A stretch of 64,000 nt of DNA from Desulfovibrionales bacterium. Its GTDB lineage: Bacteria; Desulfobacterota; QYQD01. The notes under the pieces are model-generated. The model was not told the DNA's origin. It did no database searches and worked only from the letters and a program-made list of their open reading frames with translations. Positions 23,392 to 23,537 of this stretch are shown one piece after another (position 1 is the stretch's first letter; the number at the start of each line of letters is the position of its first letter). The position numbers and the translations under genes are program-made. Where the stretch lies: assembly GCA_028715605.1 (NCBI GenBank), contig JAQURM010000001.1, positions 1 to 64,000 of the forward strand, read 5' to 3'.

Positions 23392-23419
23392 TTGACATAT
23401 AGATTATATCTATTACAGT
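23392..23419 (+). promoter_or_regulatory. Promoter candidate for the tRNA gene
   Basis: A perfect TTGACA (23392-23397), a 16-bp spacer and TACAGT (23414-23419, four of six). Transcription would start near 23426, about 20 nt before the mature tRNA 5' end. An AGAT-TAT-ATCT palindrome (23401-23411) sits in the spacer. Confidence 0.45.
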
Positions 23420-23444: not shown

Positions 23445-23537
23445 GGGGGCAATGGCGCCGGGCGCCCCACGGGCTGCAAACCCGTTGGCCTCATCTAAGA
23501 AATGAGGGGTGGGTTCGACCCCCACTTGCCCCCTCCA
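23445..23537 (+). tRNA. tRNA-Cys (GCA) with tRNA-Sec-like architecture
   Basis: A 93-nt tRNA with encoded CCA. Acceptor stem is 8 bp (GGGGGCAA, 23445-23452, with TTGCCCCC, 23526-23533). The D arm is GC-rich with a very short loop (GGCGC/GCGCC or GGCG/CGCC, 23454-23466). The anticodon stem ACGGG/CCCGT closes the loop CTGCAAA, anticodon GCA at 23476-23478, which reads Cys codons. A long variable arm has a 6-bp stem (CCTCAT/ATGAGG, 23489-23507) and 7-nt loop. The T stem is 5 bp (GTGGG/CCCAC) with loop TTCGACC. Discriminator base is T (U73), a CysRS identity element. The 8+5 stack and long extra arm are tRNA-Sec traits, but anticodon and U73 are those of tRNA-Cys. I recall a published survey reporting extra tRNA-Cys genes mimicking tRNA-Sec in deltaproteobacteria; this fits that class. 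Confidence 0.9.

Follow-up and report, generated by a model that had tools for sequence, protein, structure and literature searches.

A tRNA-Sec-like cysteine tRNA with a bulge-free T arm and its predicted use of the housekeeping SelB

What might a bacterium do with a cysteine tRNA that is built on the body of a selenocysteine tRNA? The question is raised by one gene in the window (the whole stretch of 64,000 nucleotides that was analysed), whose anticodon, GCA, pairs normally with UGC and UGU and imperfectly with UGA, which counts against the reading of UGA. The initial annotation had pointed to a survey of unusual tRNAs, and had seen in this gene a candidate for an overlooked recoding system. 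The survey exists, and tRNA-Sec-like cysteine tRNAs are described as selC* tRNA-Cys (Mukai et al. 2017, reviewed in PMC7609411), so the class is already a published one and not an overlooked system. What is distinctive here is the variant: an 8/5 tRNA without a bulge and without a second SelB, in all five genomes analysed from the genus.

Anatomy and conservation of the tRNA gene

ARAGORN called a single tRNA in the window, a tRNA-Cys(GCA), and its parts are laid out as follows.

23445..23537, + strand: tRNA-Cys(GCA) of the tRNA-Sec-like class, CCA encoded (ARAGORN; Rfam tRNA-Sec, 54.6 bits; model R1, 112 bits)
23445..23452, + strand: 5' strand of the acceptor stem, GGGGGCAA, 8 bp with 23526-23533 (from the sequence)
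23454..23466, + strand: D arm, 5 bp GGCGC/GCGCC, 3-nt loop CGG
23476..23478, + strand: anticodon GCA; stem ACGGG/CCCGT at 23469-23485, loop CUGCAAA
23489..23507, + strand: long variable arm, 6 bp CCTCAT/ATGAGG, loop CUAAGAA
23509..23525, + strand: T arm, 5 bp GTGGG/CCCAC, bulge-free, loop TTCGACC
23526..23533, + strand: 3' strand of the acceptor stem, TTGCCCCC (from the sequence)
23534..23534, + strand: discriminator U73, Cys-type (the genome's own selC has G73)

The 8-bp acceptor stem, 5-bp T stem, 6-bp variable arm, short D loop, GCA anticodon and U73 that the initial annotation had listed can all be read directly from the sequence, and the acceptor/T stack comes to 13 bp (8/5), with a 13-nt 3' strand and no bulge. 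Its description of the gene as having the traits of a tRNA-Sec is borne out for the body as a whole: the Rfam tRNA-Sec model, RF01852, matches 23445-23533 over its full length with 54.6 bits (E 2.8e-8; gathering score 47), and the general Rfam tRNA model gives only 31.4 bits on the same gene (23445-23537). The description fails for the D arm, where the stem has 5 bp and the loop 3 nt, against 6 bp and 4 nt in tRNA-Sec. The allo-tRNAs are a different design again, with a 12-bp acceptor/T branch and serine identity, where the window tRNA has 13 bp and U73.

For the window tRNA taken alone, the 8/5 fold (-44.1 kcal/mol) and a 7/6 fold (-44.7 kcal/mol) are nearly equal in energy. A standard 7/5 fold, with the extra pair unconserved, finds no support in the relatives: the eighth acceptor pair is A-U, G-C or U-A across 74 distinct tRNAs, a set picked for eight standard acceptor pairs, so that the evidence lies in the variety of pair types and not in the pairing itself. 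Aligning homologues gives the same picture within the genus, where the gene is found in all five genomes, each at species level, at 95-100% identity, with U73 and GCA invariant and the 8/5 architecture bulge-free throughout, while acceptor pair 6 passes from C-G to U-A via U-G, a compensatory change. Proteobacteria bacterium SpSt-1152 (L100), which is possibly one of these five genomes, also has the gene in this position, with rplU on one side and a galT-like gene on the other.

Across the five genomes the upstream region containing TTGACA is conserved, whereas the flank downstream of the gene has diverged.

23392..23419, + strand: promoter-like TTGACA-16-TACAGT, its -35 hexamer identical in 5/5 genomes of the genus
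23399-23413: near-perfect palindrome ATAGATTATATCTAT, within the promoter spacer of the tRNA, which is conserved in the five genomes

Because about one site of the TTGACA-16-TACAGT type is expected by chance in shuffled sequence, it is conservation that supports the promoter. The palindrome is a possible operator candidate. As the signal of a wider regulon it was rejected: the sole other exact copy in the genome (on C17) and the two one-mismatch copies that were inspected all lie in coding regions, and a reversed-pattern control is about equally frequent in the genome.

Selenocysteine and cysteine genes of the genome

At 2.56 Mb and 97.5% completeness, the genome holds the genes that the initial annotation had proposed to look for. 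A true selC with a UCA anticodon and G73 lies at C3:80186 (74.1 bits) and a normal tRNA-Cys at C1:293313; selA is present (648.8 bits), and SelB is encoded by one copy (374.6 bits), 528 kb from the window tRNA on the contig. Three molybdopterin-oxidoreductase genes of the formate-dehydrogenase (FDH) type carry an in-frame UGA in the classic FdhA Sec context, as in ARVUHAPTVAALGESFGRGAMTNH, where U stands for UGA, and the hairpins downstream of the three codons have energies of -21.0, -22.5 and -19.5 kcal/mol. Given selA, SelB, selC and the UGA-containing FDH genes, the organism very probably makes selenoproteins; and since a normal tRNA-Cys and a true selC both lie elsewhere, the window tRNA is a third, additional one, and ordinary cysteine decoding needs no extra gene.

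Both of the CysRS genes in the genome encode a CysS_C domain, and no dedicated CysRS* lacking the anticodon domain is found between them. The second, of 783 aa, joins a PALP-domain cysteine synthase to an entire CysRS (C10:37948-40296, L063:505-2856), which places a cysteine-making enzyme beside a cysteine-charging enzyme. Such fusions occur in about 35 of the 48 genomes of the phylum that were searched, with or without the odd tRNA (homologues L232-L243). As a dedicated charger of the window tRNA the fusion was rejected, being spread across the phylum and found also where the tRNA is absent. A weak tRNA match at C2:143992 was likewise set aside as a further odd tRNA; by eye, it resembles the end of a tmRNA.

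Relatives, T-arm types and SelB partners

A pattern scan of named genomes found long-arm tRNA-Cys(GCA) at 88 loci in Desulfobacterota, Bacillota, Actinomycetota and other groups. When a covariance model was run on 395 genomes of the phylum, 35 genomes scored above 90 bits, five of them those of the window's genus, and were set apart from lower matches; 40 of the lower matches were fetched, and proved to be 38 true selC genes and two members of another long-arm Cys group.

The relatives fall into two architectures that differ in their neighbours. The 8/4 forms, with a 12-nt 3' strand, a bulge and a GGAGG/CCCC T stem, have a SelB-like gene in the locus for 29 of 36 distinct tRNAs. Four of the seven that have none are followed by less than 1.2 kb of sequence; L151 and L107 have 1.8-4.9 kb downstream with no tblastn match, and L112 is a weak candidate. 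Among the 8/5 forms, with a 13-nt 3' strand, a SelB-like gene is present for one of 44 distinct tRNAs (L144); L144 probably does not belong to the tRNA-Sec-like Cys class as a real tRNA, and without it the count is 0/43. The association of T-arm type with SelB has a Fisher p of ~1e-15, a value that overstates independence, as the evolutionary changes are few and phylogenetically clumped.

Copy numbers of SelB follow the same division. There is one copy in each of the five genomes of the genus; there are at least two in 26 of the 30 other genomes of the phylum above 90 bits (of the four exceptions, two have a completeness of just 62-66%), and of 13 genomes whose model matches all stay below that score, 12 have one. 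In a SelB tree, built quickly and with long branches, a single branch (SH-aLRT 100) separates the copies adjoining Cys tRNAs from the copies elsewhere, and the SelB of the window genome lies on the latter, housekeeping side.

The T arm itself tells a similar story. True selC genes have a GTGGG T stem in 35 of 39 cases (the genome's own included), usually against CCCAU, and the 3' strand of selC in the phylum is 13 nt long. The GTGGG/CCCAC stem of the window's genus is thus close to that of the phylum's tRNA-Sec, while the selB*-linked relatives have GGAGG/CCCC. The link between the want of a private SelB and a tRNA-Sec-like T arm is a correlation, which could reflect ancestry, convergence or conversion, with the 8/5 form either ancestral or restored in this genus: in overall identity the window tRNA is closest to 8/4 forms (86%), and in a short tRNA tree, whose grouping is partly driven by the T arm itself, it falls with the other 8/5 forms. 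The single SelB and the bulge-free, tRNA-Sec-type T arm together suggest that the tRNA of this genus shares the one housekeeping SelB with tRNA-Sec.

Set beside the known systems, the gene belongs to the published class without repeating its best-described form. A strict selC* tRNA-Cys has an 8/4 fold with a bulged A51a, followed by selB* in Syntrophobacterales and Desulfobacterales, and a CysRS* without anticodon domain is placed in Desulfobacterales only (PMC7609411). The selC* tRNAs share with the window tRNA the 8-bp acceptor, the long arm, U73 and an anticodon that is GCA or UCA, and are mostly 75-86% identical to it; they differ in the 8/4 fold, the bulged A at 51a and the second selB downstream. 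The survey to which the initial annotation referred covers the class, and its 8/4 fold is not the one found here. The anatomical and genomic features of the broad class are present (8-bp acceptor, long arm, Cys identity, and selC, selA, selB and a normal tRNA-Cys in the same genome), and the marks of the strict one, the bulged 8/4 fold, a downstream selB* and a dedicated CysRS*, are absent. We regard the window tRNA as a variant of the published tRNA-Sec-like Cys class, and the 2017 and 2018 surveys may already list bulge-free 8/5 forms.

From tRNA-Sec, with which it has in common the 8/5 stack, the long variable arm and the GTGGG T stem of the phylum's selC, the window tRNA is set apart by GCA in place of UCA, U73 in place of G73, and the shorter D stem and loop. 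A Sec tRNA of Aeromonas salmonicida also bears GCA on a Sec-type fold but carries Sec, whereas U73 of the window tRNA points to Cys (Mukai et al. 2016, cited in PMC11415595). The nearest functional precedent is the tRNA-Sec-like tRNA-Cys of Desulfotomaculum nigrificans, which is reported to use SelB, and not EF-Tu, to insert Cys where UGA codes for Sec (Vargas-Rodriguez et al. 2018, cited in PMC11415595). Both tRNAs combine a GCA anticodon with a tRNA-Sec-like body and come from genomes that use Sec, although D. nigrificans belongs to Bacillota and the window genome is Desulfobacterota-like. The Bacillota relatives that were read agree with the window tRNA in the 8/5 fold, U73 and the lack of an adjoining SelB; their T stem mostly bulges at a C (GTCCGG/CCGAC), while that of the window tRNA is bulge-free. 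The D. nigrificans tRNA is also called tRNA-ReC.

Several further relatives were noted in passing. Six have a UCA anticodon (L074, L076, L175, L182, L185 and L193), some of these with A1-U72, as published for Desulfobacterales, and in genome G221 a CysRS-like open frame lies directly 3' of selB*. Other tRNA-Cys(GCA) genes with a long variable arm form a second group, which has GGCCGG-type acceptors and is mostly 7/5 with some 8/5 (L077, L097, L101, L103, L105, L110, L115, L118, L139, L141, L146, L156, L160, L165, L252 and L266; L146 and L160 share a contig); its hosts include Planctomycetota, Acidobacteriota and Desulfobacterota, among others. Some of these genes, judged by eye, adjoin DsrE-, MvhD/HdrA- or DUF3343-like genes; no SelB lies near the group, and no neighbour is consistent across its loci.

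Proposed decoding by the tRNA and its alternatives

Judged from sequence and by analogy, the window tRNA is probably a tRNA-Sec-mimicking cysteine tRNA that is charged by CysRS, delivered by the housekeeping SelB, and used to insert Cys at the UGA codons, marked by a SECIS element, of selenoproteins. Charging would depend on U73 and GCA. The 8-bp acceptor, the 13-bp acceptor/T stack and the long arm would then steer the Cys-tRNA away from EF-Tu and onto SelB; in E. coli, Ser-tRNA-Sec is bound by EF-Tu about 100-fold more weakly than Ser-tRNA-Ser, and the cause is the 8-bp acceptor (PMC7609411). SelB would carry it to a UGA followed by a SECIS hairpin, where Cys would replace Sec, in at least three formate-dehydrogenase-type proteins and plausibly under selenium shortage; a backup for selenium scarcity has been proposed for the selC*/CysRS* system of Desulfobacterales (PMC9437257). 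The single housekeeping SelB would be common to this tRNA and to tRNA-Sec, with binding by the organism's own SelB taken as an assumption. We infer Cys insertion at the FDH codons through the shared SelB from the UGA decoding reported for the D. nigrificans homologue (PMC11415595), combined with U73, GCA and the 8-bp acceptor. Cys charging with insertion at UGA had been one of the options of the initial annotation, and it is the one favoured by these features and by the selA, selB, selC and UGA-containing FDH genes.

An ordinary cysteine isoacceptor that reads UGC and UGU through EF-Tu, and whose Sec-like body is historical baggage, would also agree with GCA, with U73 and with the absence of a second SelB from the genome. 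It is unlikely, however, because a normal tRNA-Cys is already there, because the 8-bp acceptor, which weakens EF-Tu binding (PMC7609411), is kept in 74 relatives, and because the D. nigrificans homologue is reported not to use EF-Tu (PMC11415595). SelB might instead bring Cys to particular UGC or UGU codons that are followed by a SECIS-like hairpin, and not to UGA; GCA matches UGY exactly and is kept in most relatives, UCA occurring in some only. Such a use would offer no obvious gain over ordinary cysteine decoding of the same codons, and the UCA relatives adjoining selB* point to UGA, which makes it very improbable.

Equally hard to sustain is the other option of the initial annotation, in which a tRNA for Sec that bears the Cys anticodon would be charged with Ser, converted by SelA and used to place Sec at SECIS-flagged UGC or UGU. 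SerRS reads G73, and the window tRNA has U73 instead. The fifth and sixth D-stem pairs help SelA (PMC7609411), and here the sixth is missing, the D stem having 5 bp and its loop 3 nt; the genome has a proper selC besides, whose discriminator is G73. The tRNA-Sec-like fold and the presence of selA and selB do favour such a route, and the A. salmonicida precedent is real (PMC11415595); we nevertheless rate the chance as slight. That the gene is a decaying or silent relic, a view to which the absence of a second SelB partner in the genus lends something, is scarcely credible for a tRNA with all arms intact, 95-100% identity in five species-level genomes, a compensatory pair 6, and a promoter region conserved beside a diverged downstream flank.

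On the preferred reading, Cys insertion at UGA through the shared SelB, we tentatively offer a rule, without yet leaning towards it, by which T-arm architecture decides the SelB partner: 8/4 bulged tRNAs would use a private SelB*, 8/5 tRNAs, with their tRNA-Sec-type T arm, would compete with tRNA-Sec for the housekeeping SelB, and the choice of Cys or Sec at the FDH UGA codons of this genus would be set by the ratio of the charged tRNAs. The two designs, private SelB* and shared SelB, could then be told apart by a feature that is read from the T arm. The genus presents a natural, chromosomal case in which, by prediction, a single elongation factor and the same UGA codons serve two tRNAs with different amino acids, Sec and Cys, and it makes both the recognition of tRNA by SelB and the proposed backup for selenium scarcity directly testable. 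If the T-arm rule is true, these bacteria would have a selenium-responsive ambiguous codon that calls for no extra machinery.
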